This document shows, in pieces, positions 53,254 through 59,147 of a DNA stretch of 64,000 nt. Under the pieces are notes generated by a model. It did not search any database. It was not told the origin of the DNA and saw nothing but the letters and a program-made list of their open reading frames with translations. Both the position numbers and the translations under genes were made by a program. The DNA comes from Gaiellales bacterium (lineage in GTDB: Bacteria; Actinomycetota; Thermoleophilia; Gaiellales; JAICJC01). The stretch covers positions 1 through 64,000 of the forward strand of contig DASWRM010000067.1 in the NCBI GenBank assembly GCA_036403155.1, in the 5' to 3' direction. Every line of letters begins with the position of its first letter. Positions within the stretch are counted from its first letter, which is position 1.

Positions 53254-53354
53254 GGGAGTCAAACTCCCCGGACGGGCGTTGCGCGGTTGTGACGCGTCTG
53301 TGATGAACGCCGGGATGGTTGAGCGGTCCGCCCCCCGGCGGAGTCAAACGCCGG
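53254..53354. repeat. Two GTCAAA-centred intergenic hairpins
   Basis: GGGAGT-CAA-ACTCCC at 53254-53268 and CCGGCG-GAGTCAAA-CGCCGG at 53335-53354 lie in the 235-nt gap after the desulfurase gene. They share the GTCAAA/TTTGAC core with the two elements at 40581-40682. They may end the desulfurase transcript or belong to a REP-like family. Confidence 0.5.
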
Positions 53355-53444: not shown

Positions 53445-53450
53445 TACGCT
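53445..53450 (+). promoter_or_regulatory. -10 hexamer TACGCT, IscU-MnmA fusion
   Basis: Six nt before GTG 53457; supports translation of the fused form. Confidence 0.6.
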
Positions 53451-53456
53451 TCGCTC

Positions 53457-54875
53457 GTGTACAGCGACGCAGTCCTTCGCAGCGCCCTCGACGGCTCTCG
53501 AGCCGGCTCCGCCGGCCGGCACGCCGCCTGGGGCGAGGCGGGCGACCGGCGCTGCGGTGACGCGGTACGGATCGAGCTCGCGGTCGCCGGCGGCCGCGTC
53601 GTCCGCGCGCGCCACCGCGCCTTCGCCTGCCCGCACGCCACGGCCGCCGTCGCGCTGGCGTGCGCGCTCGCCGAGGGCCGCGAGCTGCTGGCCGCGGCCA
53701 CCATCGGCGCCGGCGAACTCGAGACCACTCTTCGGCCGAACGAGCACAACCGCGAATGCGTCGCGCTTGCGGCGGACGCCCTGCACGCCGCGATCGCGCG
53801 CGCCCTCGAGGCCGAGCCGCTCGCTTCGGACGAGCATCGCGTGGCCGTTGCCATGTCGGGCGGCGTCGACAGCGCCGTGGCGCTGCTGAAGGCGCTCGAG
53901 GCGGGGCTGCGGCCCGTAGGCGTGACGCTGCGGCTGTGGATCGATCCCGAGGCACCCGACTCCGAGCGCGCATGCTGCTCCCCGATGTCGGTGCGCGCCG
54001 CGCGCAGCGCCTGCCACGCCGCCGGCGTGCCGCACGTCACGCTCGACCTGCGCGACGGCTTCCGGGAGACCGTCGTCGGCGACTTCGTCCGTCGGCATGC
54101 CGAGGGTCTGACCCCGAACCCGTGCGTCCGCTGCAACGGCAGCTTCCGGTTCGACGCGCTGGCCCGCTTCGCCGACCGCGCCGGCGCGCCGCTGCTCGCC
54201 ACCGGTCACTATGCCCGCATCGTCAGGCGCGACGGCCGGACGCTGCTCGCTCGCGGGGTCGACCCGGCAAAGGACCAGTCGTACATGCTCGCCGCCGTGC
54301 CGGAGCACATCCTCGCCCGCACCTGGTTCCCGCTCGGCACGCAGCGCAAGTCGGAGACGCGGGCGCAGGCCGGAGCCGCGAACCTGGCGGCAGCCCGGCG
54401 CGCCGAGAGCCAGGAGGTCTGCTTCGTCGGCGGGGGCGACCACCGGCGGTTCCTCGAACGGCAGGGCGGTGCCGGGCCGGCGGGCGAGATCGTCGATGAG
54501 GAGGGGCAGGTGCTCGGGACGCATGCCGGCATCCACCGGTTCACGCCGGGGCAGCGTCGCGGGCTCGGCGTCGGCGGCGGGGCGCCGCTGTTCGTCCTGC
54601 GCACGGATCCCGCCACCGGACACGTCGTCGCCGCTCCGCGCGAGGCGCTGGCGCAGACCACCGTGCGGGTCCGGCCGGGGTCGCTGGCGCTGCCCGTGCG
54701 GCGGGTGGAGGCCAAGCTGCGGTACCGGTCGGCTCCCCTCGGGGCCACGGTGCGCGCGGCCGGCGACGGGTTCGACCTCGAGCTCGACGAGCCGGCGTAC
54801 GGGGTTGCTCCCGGCCAGTCGGCCGTGCTGTACGACGGCGACATGGTCGTCGGCAGCGGCGTGATCGCACGGTAG
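53457..54875 (+). CDS. mnmA: IscU-like scaffold domain fused to tRNA 2-thiouridylase MnmA
   Basis: A 472-residue fusion. Residues 1-125 are an IscU-type Fe-S scaffold: YSDAVLRSALDGSRAG, Cys33 in GDRRCGDAV, Cys58 in FACPHATAAVA and Cys101 in NRECVALAADALHAAI, matching the three ligands of IscU in spacing (25 and 43 residues). Residues 130-472 are MnmA: PP-loop AMSGGVDSAVAL near 133, Cys223 in NPCVRCNGSF, Cys322 in SQEVCFVGGG, then the C-terminal beta barrel. MnmA thiolates U34 of Lys, Glu and Gln tRNAs. GTG 53457 is 6 nt after TACGCT, which supports the fused start. Stand-alone MnmA is about 360 residues. Confidence 0.88.
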   Translation: MYSDAVLRSALDGSRAGSAGRHAAWGEAGDRRCGDAVRIELAVAGGRVVRARHRAFACPHATAAVALACALAEGRELLAAATIGAGELETTLRPNEHNRECVALAADALHAAIARALEAEPLASDEHRVAVAMSGGVDSAVALLKALEAGLRPVGVTLRLWIDPEAPDSERACCSPMSVRAARSACHAAGVPHVTLDLRDGFRETVVGDFVRRHAEGLTPNPCVRCNGSFRFDALARFADRAGAPLLATGHYARIVRRDGRTLLARGVDPAKDQSYMLAAVPEHILARTWFPLGTQRKSETRAQAGAANLAAARRAESQEVCFVGGGDHRRFLERQGGAGPAGEIVDEEGQVLGTHAGIHRFTPGQRRGLGVGGGAPLFVLRTDPATGHVVAAPREALAQTTVRVRPGSLALPVRRVEAKLRYRSAPLGATVRAAGDGFDLELDEPAYGVAPGQSAVLYDGDMVVGSGVIAR

Positions 54876-54886: not shown

Positions 54887-55264
54887 ATGGACGCCTCCGA
54901 CGCCTGGCGCTACGCGCTCGCCGCCTTCCTGATCTTGACCGGTATCGGTCTGACGTACATGCTGCTGCGCCTGGGTGGGCTGCTGGGGCGGGCCACGACG
55001 AGCATCGAGCAGGCGATGACGGAGGTCATGCCCATGCTGGGCAAGGCATCGACGACGCTCGACCACGTCAACGAGGAGCTCGGCAAGGTCGGCCACATCA
55101 CCGACTCGGCGGTCGATGCGGCGGACAAGCTCGACAGCACCGTCCGGACGCTCTCGAGCGTGCTGGGAAAGCCGGCGAAGGCCGTGTCCGGTGTGTCCGC
55201 CGGGGTGTCCCAGGCGTTTCAGAGCTTCCGCAGCAAGCGCAACCAGCGCGGCGGCGTCGTGTGA
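54887..55264 (+). CDS. DUF948-type membrane protein
   Basis: A 125-residue protein: an N-terminal transmembrane helix (YALAAFLILTGIGLTYMLL) and a long amphipathic helix with heptads (TLDHVNEELGKVGHITDSAV), ending basic. This is the DUF948 pattern commonly found before alaS in actinobacteria. ATG 54887 lies 8 nt after TAGTAT, whose TAG is the mnmA stop. It overlaps the next gene by 4 nt. Role unknown; possibly a membrane scaffold. Confidence 0.75.
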   Translation: MDASDAWRYALAAFLILTGIGLTYMLLRLGGLLGRATTSIEQAMTEVMPMLGKASTTLDHVNEELGKVGHITDSAVDAADKLDSTVRTLSSVLGKPAKAVSGVSAGVSQAFQSFRSKRNQRGGVV

Positions 55265-55742: not shown

Positions 55743-56057
55743 TTAGTCGTGCAGCCTCGCGACGACCTCGTGGCGCGCGATCAGCCGCTTGGGCTGCCCG
55801 CTGACTCGGATCTCGAATCCGGCACGCCGCGGGAACAGCACCTTGTCGCCCGGCGCGAGTCCGCCCGCGTCGTCGCCCGCCGCCACGACGATCCCCGAAA
55901 GGCAGGCCGACTCCGCCGATGCCGGGATGATCAGGCCGGCTCGCGTCTCGGTCTCGTCCTCGACCGGCTCCACCAGCACGTAGTGGTCGAGCGGCTCGAT
56001 CCGCCCGGTGAAGGGCTGCGAGCGCTCGAACCTGTCGAGGGTGTCGTCTTCGTGCAT
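55743..56057 (-). CDS. GroES-like co-chaperonin
   Basis: A 104-residue GroES-fold protein. The core IEPLDHYVLVEPVEDETETRAG starts the chaperonin-10 domain, followed by GIVVAAGDDAGGLAPGDKVLF and a C-terminal VVARLHD strand. Unlike canonical GroES it has a 20-residue N-terminal lead, a shortened mobile loop (GLIIPASAESACLSG) and no neighbouring groEL, so it is probably a divergent paralogue. ATG 56057 is 6 nt after TACGCT with no ribosome site. Confidence 0.75.
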   Translation of the reverse strand: MHEDDTLDRFERSQPFTGRIEPLDHYVLVEPVEDETETRAGLIIPASAESACLSGIVVAAGDDAGGLAPGDKVLFPRRAGFEIRVSGQPKRLIARHEVVARLHD

Positions 56058-56061
56058 GCGC

Positions 56062-56466
56062 TCAGCGTAGCGGGGCGATGTCGCCGAACGCCCGCCGGAC
56101 GTCGGCGAGCAGCGCGGGCAGCTCGAACGGCTTCTGGTGGAATGCCGCGCCCAGCTCGGCGACCCGCCGCCGCGTCTCCGGGTCTCCCACCACCGACATG
56201 ACGATCATCGAGCACGGCAGACGCTCCCGCGCGGCGTGCTCGCAGAGCGCGAGGCCGTCGATGCCGGGCATCCGCACGTCGACCACCGCCGCACCGTGCC
56301 GCCGGGCGCGCAGCAGCTCCAGCGCGCCATGCCCGTCCGCGGCCTCGTCCACCAGGTACCCATGCGCGCGCAGCGCCTCGCAGATCACCGTCCGCAGCGG
56401 TGCGTGGTCGTCGGCCACCAGCACGGAGCGGTCGCTGGGGCCTGCGTGCGCACGAGGCTCGTCCAC
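56062..56466 (-). CDS. Stand-alone response-regulator receiver protein
   Basis: A 134-residue protein consisting of one receiver domain: acidic pair in VLVADDHAPLR, phospho-acceptor Asp in GAAVVDVRMPGIDGLAL, the Thr/Ser switch in MIVMSVVGD and the Lys in FHQKPFELPALL. No output domain. No histidine kinase is close. GTG 56466 begins the frame; ACAATG a few bases upstream might be part of its promoter. It ends only 5 nt before the GroES-like gene, so the two may be co-transcribed. Confidence 0.82.
   Translation of the reverse strand: MDEPRAHAGPSDRSVLVADDHAPLRTVICEALRAHGYLVDEAADGHGALELLRARRHGAAVVDVRMPGIDGLALCEHAARERLPCSMIVMSVVGDPETRRRVAELGAAFHQKPFELPALLADVRRAFGDIAPLR
56064..56069 (-). promoter_or_regulatory. 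-10 hexamer TACGCT, GroES-like gene
   Basis: Six nt before ATG 56057. Confidence 0.55.
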
Positions 56467-56567: not shown

Positions 56568-59147
56568 ATGCGCAGCCACGAGCTGAGACGCCGGTATCTC
56601 GAATACTTCATCGAACGCGGCCACGTCCACCTGCCGAGCGGCTCGCTCGTGCCCCCGGACTGGGACACCTCCGTCCTGATCACCACCGCCGGGATGCAGC
56701 CGCTGAAGCGGTACTTCCTCGGCATCGAGCAGCCGCCCGCCCCGCGCGCCACCAGTGTGCAGAAGTGCTTCCGCACCGGCGACATCGACGAGGTCGGGAA
56801 CACGGCGCGGCATCTCACCTTCTTCGAGATGCTGGGCAACTTCTCGTTCGGCGAGTACTTCAAGGAGTACGCGATCGAATGTGCCTGGGATCTCTCGACG
56901 CGGGAGGACGGGTTCGGGCTCGACCGCGAGCGCATCTGGGTGAGCGTCTACCAGGGCGACGAGCGGGTTCCGCCCGACGAGGAGGCGATCGCGCTGTGGG
57001 TCGCCAACACCGGCGTGCCGGCCGAGCGGATCGTCCGGCTGGGCGGCGACAACTTCTGGCAGGCGGGTCCGACCGGCCCCTGCGGCCCCTGCTCCGAGCT
57101 GTACTACGACCGCGGCCCGGAGCATGGCTGCGACCGGCCAGACTGTGCCCCGGGCTGCGAGTGCGACCGCTTTCTCGAGTTCTGGAACCTGGTGTTCCTC
57201 CAGTACAACATGCTGGAGGGCGGCGGGCTGGAGGCGCTGCCCGCGCCCAGCGTCGACACCGGCGCGGGGCTCGAGCGGGTCACCGCGCTGACCGAGGGTG
57301 TGCACTCGGTCTTCGAGACCGACGCCTTCGCCGACATCATCCGCGAGATCGAGGCCTGGTCGGGCGCGCGGTACGGCGAGACGGAGTCGCAGACCAAGTC
57401 GCTGAGGGTACTCGCCGACCACGGCCGCTCGATGACGTTCCTCGCAAGCGACGGCATCGAGCCGTCGAACGAGGGCCGCGGCTACGTGCTTCGGCGCATC
57501 ATCCGGCGAGCAGCGCTGCACGCGCGGCGCCTCGGCATCGACGGTTTGGTCGCACCCCGCGTCCAGGAGGTCGTGATCGGCCTGTTCGGCGAGGCCTACC
57601 CCGACCTGCAGCGCAACCGCCTCGAGGTCGCGGAGCTGCTCGCGAACGAGGAGGCACGATTCGCGCAGACGCTGCGCAACGGCCAGCAGCTGCTCGACGA
57701 GGTGCTCGCCCGCTCGGCGGAGCAGATCGCGGCGGAGGACGCCTTCCGACTGCACGACACGTACGGCTTCCCGTTCGAGCTCACCGCCGAGATCGCGTCC
57801 GAGCACGGCAGGACGGTGGACGAGGCCGGCTTCGCCCGGCTGATGGACGAGCAGCGCGAGCGGGCGCGAGCCAGCACCGCCGCCGTGGGCTACGGGGCAT
57901 CCGAGCTGGATGCCGGCTTCACGACCGACTTCGTCGGCTACGAGCAGCTCGACGTCCGCACGCAGGTCGGCGCCCTGGCGCTCGAGCAGGACGGGGCCAT
58001 CCGGCTGAAGCTGCGCGAGTCGCCGTTCTACGCCGCCGGCGGCGGCCAGGTCTCCGACAGCGGCGTGATCGAGTCGGACACCGGCCGCGCCGTCGTCGAG
58101 CAGGTCATCCGGCAGGACGAGGACCAGCAGATCGTGGCGCGAATCGTGGAGGGCGAGATCGCAGCGGGCGAGCGGGTGCGCGCGCACGTCGCGGGCGACC
58201 TGCGTCGCCCGACGATGGCGAACCACACCGCGACCCACCTCCTGCACGCCGCGCTGCGCGAGGTGCTGGGCGGGCACGTGAGCCAGGCCGGCTCGTACGT
58301 CGGCCCGGACAAGCTGCGCTTCGACTTCCGGCATGACAGCCCGATGAGCCCGGAGCAGGTGCGGCAGGTCGAGGACATCGTGAACCGCCGGATCGTCGAG
58401 AACAGGCCCGTGCACATCTTCGTGACCGAGCAGGACCGCGCCCGCGAGCTCGGGGCAACCATGCTGTTCACCGAGAAGTACGGCGAGCAGGTGCGCGTGG
58501 TCGAGGTGCCCGACGTGTCGCTCGAGCTGTGCGGCGGCACGCATGTCCGCACCACAGCCGAGATCGGCGCGTTCGTCATCCAGCGCGAGTCGAGCTCGTC
58601 CCAGGGCGTCCGCCGGATCGAGGCAATCACCGGACAGGCCGCCGTCGACCATCTGCGCGCCAGGTCGGACGAGGCGGACCGGCTCGAGCGCGAGGTCGCC
58701 GCGCTGCGCGGCGAGCTGAAGAAGCGCGAGCGCGCCGGCGGCACCGGCCCGGGTGGCGGGTCGGGCAACGGGCGCGAGTCCTCGCTGATCGAATCGGCCG
58801 GCGAGCAGGACGGCGTGCGCATCGTCGCTGCGGTGGTCGACGACACCGACGCTGACGCCCTGCTCGCGATCTCGGACCGTCTGAAGGCCCGGCTGGCGCC
58901 GGCCGCCATCGTGCTCGGCAGCGCGACGGACGGCAGGGTGCACCTGATCGCCGCGGTCGACCAGCCGGTCGTGGACCGGGGGCTGTCGGCCGTCGACCTG
59001 ATCCGCGAGATCGCGCCGATCGTCGGGGGCGGCGGCGGCGGCCGGCCGACGATGGCGCGAGCGGGCGGTCGCGACGCCGACCAGCTCGGCGCGGCCATCG
59101 CGGCCGCCGAGACCGCGATCCGCGAGCGCCTCAGCGCCGCCGGATGA
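56568..59147 (+). CDS. alaS: Alanyl-tRNA synthetase
   Basis: An 859-residue AlaRS, standard length. The class II core begins LRRRYLEYFIERGHVHLPSG with the TTAGMQPLKRYFLG and CFRTGDIDEVG segments; the editing domain holds the zinc set NHTATHLLHAALREV and ELCGGTHVRTTAEIG; the C-Ala domain is at the end with GGGGGRPTMARAGGRD. ATG 56568 is 6 nt after TAGAAT, the clearest leaderless promoter in the window. It leads the alaS-ruvX-mltG-aroE operon. Confidence 0.96.
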   Translation: MRSHELRRRYLEYFIERGHVHLPSGSLVPPDWDTSVLITTAGMQPLKRYFLGIEQPPAPRATSVQKCFRTGDIDEVGNTARHLTFFEMLGNFSFGEYFKEYAIECAWDLSTREDGFGLDRERIWVSVYQGDERVPPDEEAIALWVANTGVPAERIVRLGGDNFWQAGPTGPCGPCSELYYDRGPEHGCDRPDCAPGCECDRFLEFWNLVFLQYNMLEGGGLEALPAPSVDTGAGLERVTALTEGVHSVFETDAFADIIREIEAWSGARYGETESQTKSLRVLADHGRSMTFLASDGIEPSNEGRGYVLRRIIRRAALHARRLGIDGLVAPRVQEVVIGLFGEAYPDLQRNRLEVAELLANEEARFAQTLRNGQQLLDEVLARSAEQIAAEDAFRLHDTYGFPFELTAEIASEHGRTVDEAGFARLMDEQRERARASTAAVGYGASELDAGFTTDFVGYEQLDVRTQVGALALEQDGAIRLKLRESPFYAAGGGQVSDSGVIESDTGRAVVEQVIRQDEDQQIVARIVEGEIAAGERVRAHVAGDLRRPTMANHTATHLLHAALREVLGGHVSQAGSYVGPDKLRFDFRHDSPMSPEQVRQVEDIVNRRIVENRPVHIFVTEQDRARELGATMLFTEKYGEQVRVVEVPDVSLELCGGTHVRTTAEIGAFVIQRESSSSQGVRRIEAITGQAAVDHLRARSDEADRLEREVAALRGELKKRERAGGTGPGGGSGNGRESSLIESAGEQDGVRIVAAVVDDTDADALLAISDRLKARLAPAAIVLGSATDGRVHLIAAVDQPVVDRGLSAVDLIREIAPIVGGGGGGRPTMARAGGRDADQLGAAIAAAETAIRERLSAAG

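Follow-up and report, generated by a model that had tools for sequence, protein, structure and literature searches.

A diverged IscU-derived domain fused to a C-type MnmA in a Gaiellales bacterium

Introduction

Whether MnmA, which supplies sulfur to tRNA, works through a persulfide or a [4Fe-4S] cluster is disputed (PMC11784392). C-type MnmAs are defined by the cysteine signature CC-CxxC-C (PMC8584467, PMC11784392); one of them, the Thermus thermophilus enzyme, carries a [4Fe-4S] cluster and works only under anaerobic conditions (PMC8584467). The MnmA of Bacillus subtilis takes sulfur directly from YrvO and needs no extra domain (PMC11784392). The gene described here encodes an IscU-like domain and a C-type MnmA in one chain; it lies in a stretch of 64,000 nucleotides from a Gaiellales bacterium (GenBank assembly GCA_036403155.1, contig DASWRM010000067.1, positions 1 to 64,000), referred to below as the window.

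The IscU side can be compared with the human mitochondrial protein ISCU2. All five of its site residues (Cys69, Asp71, Cys95, His137 and Cys138) are described as essential for the assembly process, but persulfide transfer requires only Asp71, Cys95 and Cys138; the H137A and C69S variants retain 70–101% of this transfer (PMC11021402). His137 sterically blocks the approach of the NFS1 cysteine until frataxin moves it, and free ISCU2 holds iron via Cys69, Asp71, Cys95 and His137 (PMC11021402).

The protein joins two known families, in that a C-type MnmA bears a diverged domain of IscU origin at its N terminus. Domain databases very probably contain such fused sequences already. No paper among those searched describes an MnmA–IscU/NifU fusion, though the primary paper on C-type MnmA (PMC7025502) may mention one.

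Architecture of the fusion gene

A single open frame on the forward strand runs from a GTG codon at 53457 to a TAG stop at 54875 and encodes 472 amino acids (Table 1). A first-pass annotation of the window, made from the sequence alone, had described it as an IscU-type domain fused to a complete MnmA, and had suggested a domain search with IscU_N and tRNA_Me_trans models; NifU_N and MnmA models indeed matched. The N-terminal part scores 52–56 bits against the Pfam NifU_N model PF01592 (cut-off 22; full protein, 52 bits) and has a complete IscU fold over residues 2–114, with structure matches extending across residues 2–122, which places it in the NifU_N/IscU superfamily by profile and by fold. 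Its nearest structures are those of IscU in complexes with IscS or NFS1 (4eb5, Z = 21.1; 8pk8, Z = 20.6). Residues 128–470 exceed the curated MnmA cut-offs (NF001138, 343.1 against 284 bits; TIGR00420, 268.7 against 237 bits). An AlphaFold2 model of the whole chain, built with 24 fused homologues, has a predicted local distance difference test score (pLDDT) of 94.2 and a predicted template modelling score of 0.91. Chance and misassembly are ruled out as explanations, since fused frames are found in more than 100 genomes, including the single-contig genomes G066, G128, G135, G141, G319 and G347; the fusion of an IscU-derived domain to MnmA is genuine and occurs widely across its class.

The start at 53457 is supported by a hexamer that the first-pass annotation had taken as leaderless-type. 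The TANNNT-N6-start layout, TACGCT-N6-GTG in the window, recurs in L004 (TAGTCT) and L006 (TAGCCT), both of the window's own family, and in the sister family f3 a TAGC[CG]T hexamer lies just 5′ of the start of most genes. The arrangement fits a leaderless transcript. An upstream TTG at 53319 was considered as a start and ruled out by homology and by the hexamer.

The three cysteines at positions 33, 58 and 101 and the CGD motif, picked out in the first pass, align with IscU C37, C63 and C106, with Asp35 opposite D39, and Glu100 occupies the position of the conserved His ahead of the third cysteine, again as first read. In the MnmA half, both catalytic cysteines are present as annotated (C226 and C322, equivalent to Cys102 and Cys199 of Escherichia coli), together with the PP-loop SGGVDS at residues 134–139. 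The first-pass annotation had omitted C223 and C173/C174, which complete the CC-CxxC-C signature of the C-type iron–sulfur (Fe–S) MnmAs. In the window's family, f1, the N-terminal Tyr is retained and the LPPxK motif of operon NifU proteins is gone. The ratio of non-synonymous to synonymous substitution rates (dN/dS) between the window and its f1 relatives is 0.28–0.61 for the domain and 0.24–0.37 for MnmA; the domain is therefore constrained, though less than MnmA.

The third site in fused and unfused domains

The five assembly residues of ISCU2 (C69, D71, C95, H137 and C138) correspond to C33, D35, C58, E100 and C101 of the window's protein, so that the Cys-Asp-Cys-His-Cys set of the IscU/NifU scaffold class is broken at Glu100. 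The domain alone also falls below the NCBIfam equivalog cut-offs of iscU, NifU_clost and NifU_proper (33, 43 and 31 bits against 192, 188 and 273, respectively) and below that of the SufU model SUF_scaf_2 (TIGR01994; 15.8 against 92.5 bits).

Fused domains with an intact Cys-Asp-Cys (n = 73) are of two types. His alone is kept at the third site in 53 of them (C-D-C-H-x; families f5, f8, f10, f11, f12 and f23) and Cys alone in the other 20 (C-D-C-x-C; f1, including the window, f2, f7 and f54); no domain has both or lacks both. These are counts of sequences, not of independent events, and parsimony gives four changes for the Cys. Unfused neighbouring NifU proteins read C-D-C-H-C in 15 of 17 cases; both exceptions come from f23 and read C-D-C-H-A, so the Cys can be lost in unfused proteins as well. 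Because it fails this five-residue comparison, the domain is not filed here as an IscU scaffold, and the earlier wording ‘IscU-type scaffold’ was too strong: judged by the aligned residues, a fused domain with Cys-Asp-Cys never keeps the full scaffold set. By analogy with ISCU2, the Cys-only type may hold what is needed to accept sulfur and be free of the blocking His, and the His-only type may have the metal-binding set but no acceptor.

The domain is eroded in f3, f4, f9 and two members of f7, and other f7 members do not have it at all. In f3, a remnant of about 70 residues (three strands and a C-terminal helix; pLDDT 93.8) is fused to MnmA; every ligand cysteine has been lost, yet the remnant is conserved (L010:1345–1572, other f3 loci, alignment A3). 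Its kinship with IscU rests on hhalign (probability 95.7) and shared gene position; no Pfam model matched it and no IscU was among the structure matches listed. The f4 loci L029, L030 and L031 carry an unusual CAGGSCG motif in the IscU part and have lost the second and third cysteines. One f3 locus (L014, genome G015) has a single TGA near the gene end, within the match to the MnmA fusion.

Distribution and origin

Counting the architecture, as the first-pass annotation had proposed, gives at least 114 genomes among the matches listed for a sample of 200 genomes from the class, each with one frame that begins to align no later than residue 30 and continues to the MnmA end. Beyond the class, the fusion is present in families f23, which is probably Rubrobacter-like, and f54. 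Most other actinobacteria align from about residue 125 only. A collection scan for taxon naming, in which the matches listed were mostly plain MnmA from all bacteria, named several operons with unfused genes and at least one fused relative, L105, a Solirubrobacterales (Thermoleophilia) metagenome-assembled genome (MAG) that groups inside f10 on the MnmA tree; Thermoleophilia is therefore very probably the class in question.

Separate nifS, nifU and mnmA genes are found in Clostridia, a Desulfuromonadales MAG, an actinobacterial MAG and families f29 and f6; the NifU and MnmA frames of f29 share a phase and are separated by a single stop. The first-pass annotation had held that homologues in which an in-frame stop divides two separate genes would speak against a fusion. 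Such homologues do occur (L096–L098 and L102), but they represent an ancestral or alternative operon state and no fault in the window, and the fusion stands. The simplest origin is a fusion of operon neighbours, because Clostridia and deep actinobacteria retain the unfused nifS-nifU-mnmA operon. Fused and unfused families interleave on the MnmA tree, a topology that one fusion with reversals or several fusions could both produce. Two f23 genomes have IscU and MnmA parts that are not continuous: a change of frame separates them in L100, and L102 has an in-frame stop within the linker. This may reflect a secondary split, the ancestral state or a sequencing error.

Genomic setting

The desulfurase gene noted earlier just upstream is of the NifS type; its best NCBIfam match, TIGR03402 (NifS), reaches 326 bits, below the equivalog cut-off. 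A nifS gene is adjacent in f1, f2, f6, f23, f29 and Clostridia, and most genomes of f3 and nearly all of those of f8, f10, f11 and f12 have no NifS-type gene. The third cysteine is kept by none of the 37 genomes without NifS and by 20 of the 43 with it. Whether Cys101 goes with the presence of NifS was tested statistically; the direction is always consistent, but no significance is obtained on independent pairs, which are too few for a sign test to reach 0.05.

Neither TusA nor TusE/DsrC was detected in the window's genome (G000, a draft 98% complete) or in those f1 and f2 relatives that were searched, which is no proof of absence. SufB, SufD, SufS and SufU are clustered elsewhere in G000, with SufU (L103:4988–5539) next to SufS, so general Fe–S assembly does not need the fused domain. 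Most genomes of the class are without a NifS/IscS-type desulfurase, and SufS–SufU is the only obvious candidate sulfur donor for MnmA there. In most f5 genomes, including G066 (C1:2209449–2210797), a diverged IscS-like desulfurase gene has a TusA gene directly after it, and the MnmA fusion is His-only; this pair is possibly an alternative sulfur route.

Table 1. Features of the window at and around the fusion gene; residue numbers are those of the fusion protein
Feature	Position	Strand	Evidence or remark
NifS/IscS-type cysteine desulfurase, 370 aa, SAGSACASG catalytic Cys loop	52109..53221	+	Aminotran_5, E 1.4e-64
TACGCT, -10-like hexamer, leaderless-type	53445..53450	+	Exactly 6 bases ahead of the GTG start
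Fusion gene, NifU_N/IscU-like domain + MnmA	53457..54875	+	Frame, profile matches, alignment A1 (24 fused proteins), AlphaFold2
NifU_N/IscU-like domain, residues 1–115	53457..53801	+	PF01592, E 4.4e-15 (domain alone); IscU structures, Z 19–21, root-mean-square deviation 1.5–2.3
C33-G-D35 (ISCU2 Cys69, Asp71)	53553..53561	+	C and D invariant in the 24 proteins of A1; f2 reads CDD
C58 (ISCU2 Cys95)	53628..53630	+	Invariant in A1
E100-C101 (ISCU2 His137, Cys138), third site, Cys-only type	53754..53759	+	Residue alignment of fused domains
MnmA, complete, residues 128–472	53838..54872	+	TIGR00420 and NF001138 above cut-off; MnmA structures, Z 37–40
C173 C174, CC motif of C-type MnmA	53973..53978	+	Invariant in A1
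C223-x-x-C226, CxxC (E. coli Asp99, Cys102 positions)	54123..54134	+	Invariant in A1 and A2
C322 (E. coli Cys199, persulfide Cys)	54420..54422	+	Invariant in A1 and A2
DUF948-like small protein	54887..55264	+	Frequent downstream neighbour; DUF948 match below cut-off
GroES/Cpn10-like gene and stand-alone response-regulator receiver gene	55743–56057, 56062–56466	-	Between the DUF948-like gene and alaS
alaS	56568..59147	+	Frequent downstream neighbour; conserved order in many fused loci

Possible functions of the fused domain

The reading that we favour, tentatively, is that the domain is a captured operon NifU/IscU, specialised away from full scaffold duty, which in the window's lineage would dock NifS, take a persulfide from it and feed MnmA in cis. 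NifS next door would make the persulfide, and the fused domain would dock NifS as IscU docks IscS; Cys101 would accept the persulfide, with a metal held by Asp35 and Cys58. Sulfur would then pass in cis to the C322/C226/C223 site of MnmA, where a cluster on C223, C226 and C322 would be optional, and C322 would deliver it to adenylated U34. One chain would do the job of the E. coli Tus relay. If this is true, the family contains a sulfur relay to tRNA that derives from IscU and is covalently attached; we know of no IscU in such a role.

A relay is preferred over cluster assembly because the window keeps equivalents of all three ISCU2 residues needed to accept a persulfide, and Cys33 besides, with Glu in place of the essential His, because nifS is adjacent, and because no TusA or TusE was detected. 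The SUF genes elsewhere in the genome would leave the fused copy free of general cluster duty. Also in favour of a relay are the lack of Cys101 in all 37 genomes without NifS, the loss of LPPxK in f1, the constraint on the domain seen in dN/dS, and nearest structures in which IscU is bound to its desulfurase. The first-pass annotation had offered a persulfide relay or an Fe–S-dependent MnmA as alternatives. The former fits these data better; the latter does not follow from the fusion, because CC-CxxC-C is kept with or without the IscU ligand cysteines, as f3 shows.

Several observations weigh against a cis relay. The data linking Cys101 to NifS comprise too few independent events, the Cys requiring only the four changes on the tree. 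Family f23 has an adjacent NifS yet is His-only and has no acceptor Cys, and f9 has NifS and has lost the site. The domain is eroded in f3 and f4 while MnmA stays intact, so many relatives manage with no such domain; none of the ligand cysteines survives in f3, and the domain is not generally indispensable. Conservation of the f3 remnant implies a role, present or past, that does not need cysteines, or a domain that is being lost. The B. subtilis enzyme manages with YrvO alone, and f1 keeps the N-terminal Tyr, the residue that aids ISCU2 dimerisation for cluster synthesis. Moreover, the ISCU2 mechanism, on which the relay is modelled, is carried over from a mitochondrial protein and may apply here by analogy only. 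An extension of the relay, that fusion split IscU into two mutually exclusive half-functions, a Cys-only acceptor of persulfide from a NifS-type desulfurase, free of the blocking His (the window, f2, f7 and f54), and a His-only metal module (the remaining families, of which most have no NifS), is possible but somewhat doubtful.

It is rather unlikely, though conceivable, that the domain is instead a docking or structural/metal module, which recruits the desulfurase or tRNA or holds Zn or Fe while the persulfide goes directly from NifS (or SufS) to C322 of MnmA. The sole feature common to the 73 sequences, a four-ligand site of Cys-Asp-Cys plus one of His or Cys, would suit such a module, as would the preservation in His-only lineages of the metal set of free ISCU2, the constrained f3 remnant without ligand cysteines and the direct supply of MnmA by YrvO. 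It leaves unexplained, however, why genomes without NifS are always without the Cys, and why f1, f2, f7 and f54 keep the Cys together with the Asp and the equivalent of Cys95.

We consider unlikely a third possibility, that the domain builds an Fe–S cluster with NifS for transfer to the [4Fe-4S] site, CxxC-C, in its own MnmA half. The MnmA half is of the same type as the cluster-bearing T. thermophilus enzyme, the domain derives from an operon NifU with a complete site, and three Cys and the Asp of IscU are kept, as is the N-terminal Tyr in f1. Against this, none of the 73 fused domains has all five residues essential in ISCU2, compared with 15 of the 17 unfused neighbours; the f3 and f9 MnmAs retain CxxC-C without a usable scaffold site; a full SUF system lies elsewhere in the genome; and LPPxK has been lost in f1. 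That the domain is a mere passenger, a by-product of operon proximity now being lost without a needed function, would agree with the erosion in f3, f4, f9 and part of f7, its complete loss in other f7 members and a dN/dS above that of MnmA, but is highly improbable given the exact one-of-two pattern in all 73 sequences, the invariance of Cys33, Asp35 and Cys58 in A1, an f1 dN/dS well below 1 and the conserved f3 remnant.

The family amounts to a natural experiment, in which the cluster-type cysteines of MnmA stay constant while the IscU domain passes from Cys-only to His-only to eroded and the desulfurase and Tus genes vary. It offers two individual residues, C101 and E100, and a set of proteins for comparison, with which a sulfur relay could be told apart from the delivery of a cluster, and it is relevant to how IscU keeps accepting sulfur and binding metal apart.

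Comparison with known systems

The domain resembles IscU/NifU_N proteins (4eb5 from Archaeoglobus fulgidus, the Methanothrix-type 7c8m and ISCU2 in 8pk8) in its fold over residues 2–122, the CGD motif, the second and third cysteines and the N-terminal Tyr; unlike them, it is fused to an enzyme, has Glu for His137, has lost LPPxK and scores below the NCBIfam equivalog cut-offs. SufU, a zinc sulfurtransferase of the same superfamily, also takes persulfide from a desulfurase, but its structural similarity to the domain is lower (Z = 13.8–14.9), and the window's genome has its own copy next to SufS. The MnmA half shares C173/C174, C223-x-x-C226, C322 and the complete three-domain structure with the C-type MnmA of T. 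thermophilus, from which the protein differs by its extra N-terminal IscU-like domain. The clostridial nifS-nifU-mnmA operon has the same gene order in separate genes (L109, L116, L127, L150 and L169, and also f6 and f29), and its NifU, unlike the window's domain, is a separate small gene product with all five assembly residues. The Tus relay of E. coli (TusA, TusBCD and TusE) is alike in the role proposed here, conveying persulfide from a desulfurase to MnmA; its proteins are unrelated to the window's domain, which is covalently attached to the enzyme that it would serve.
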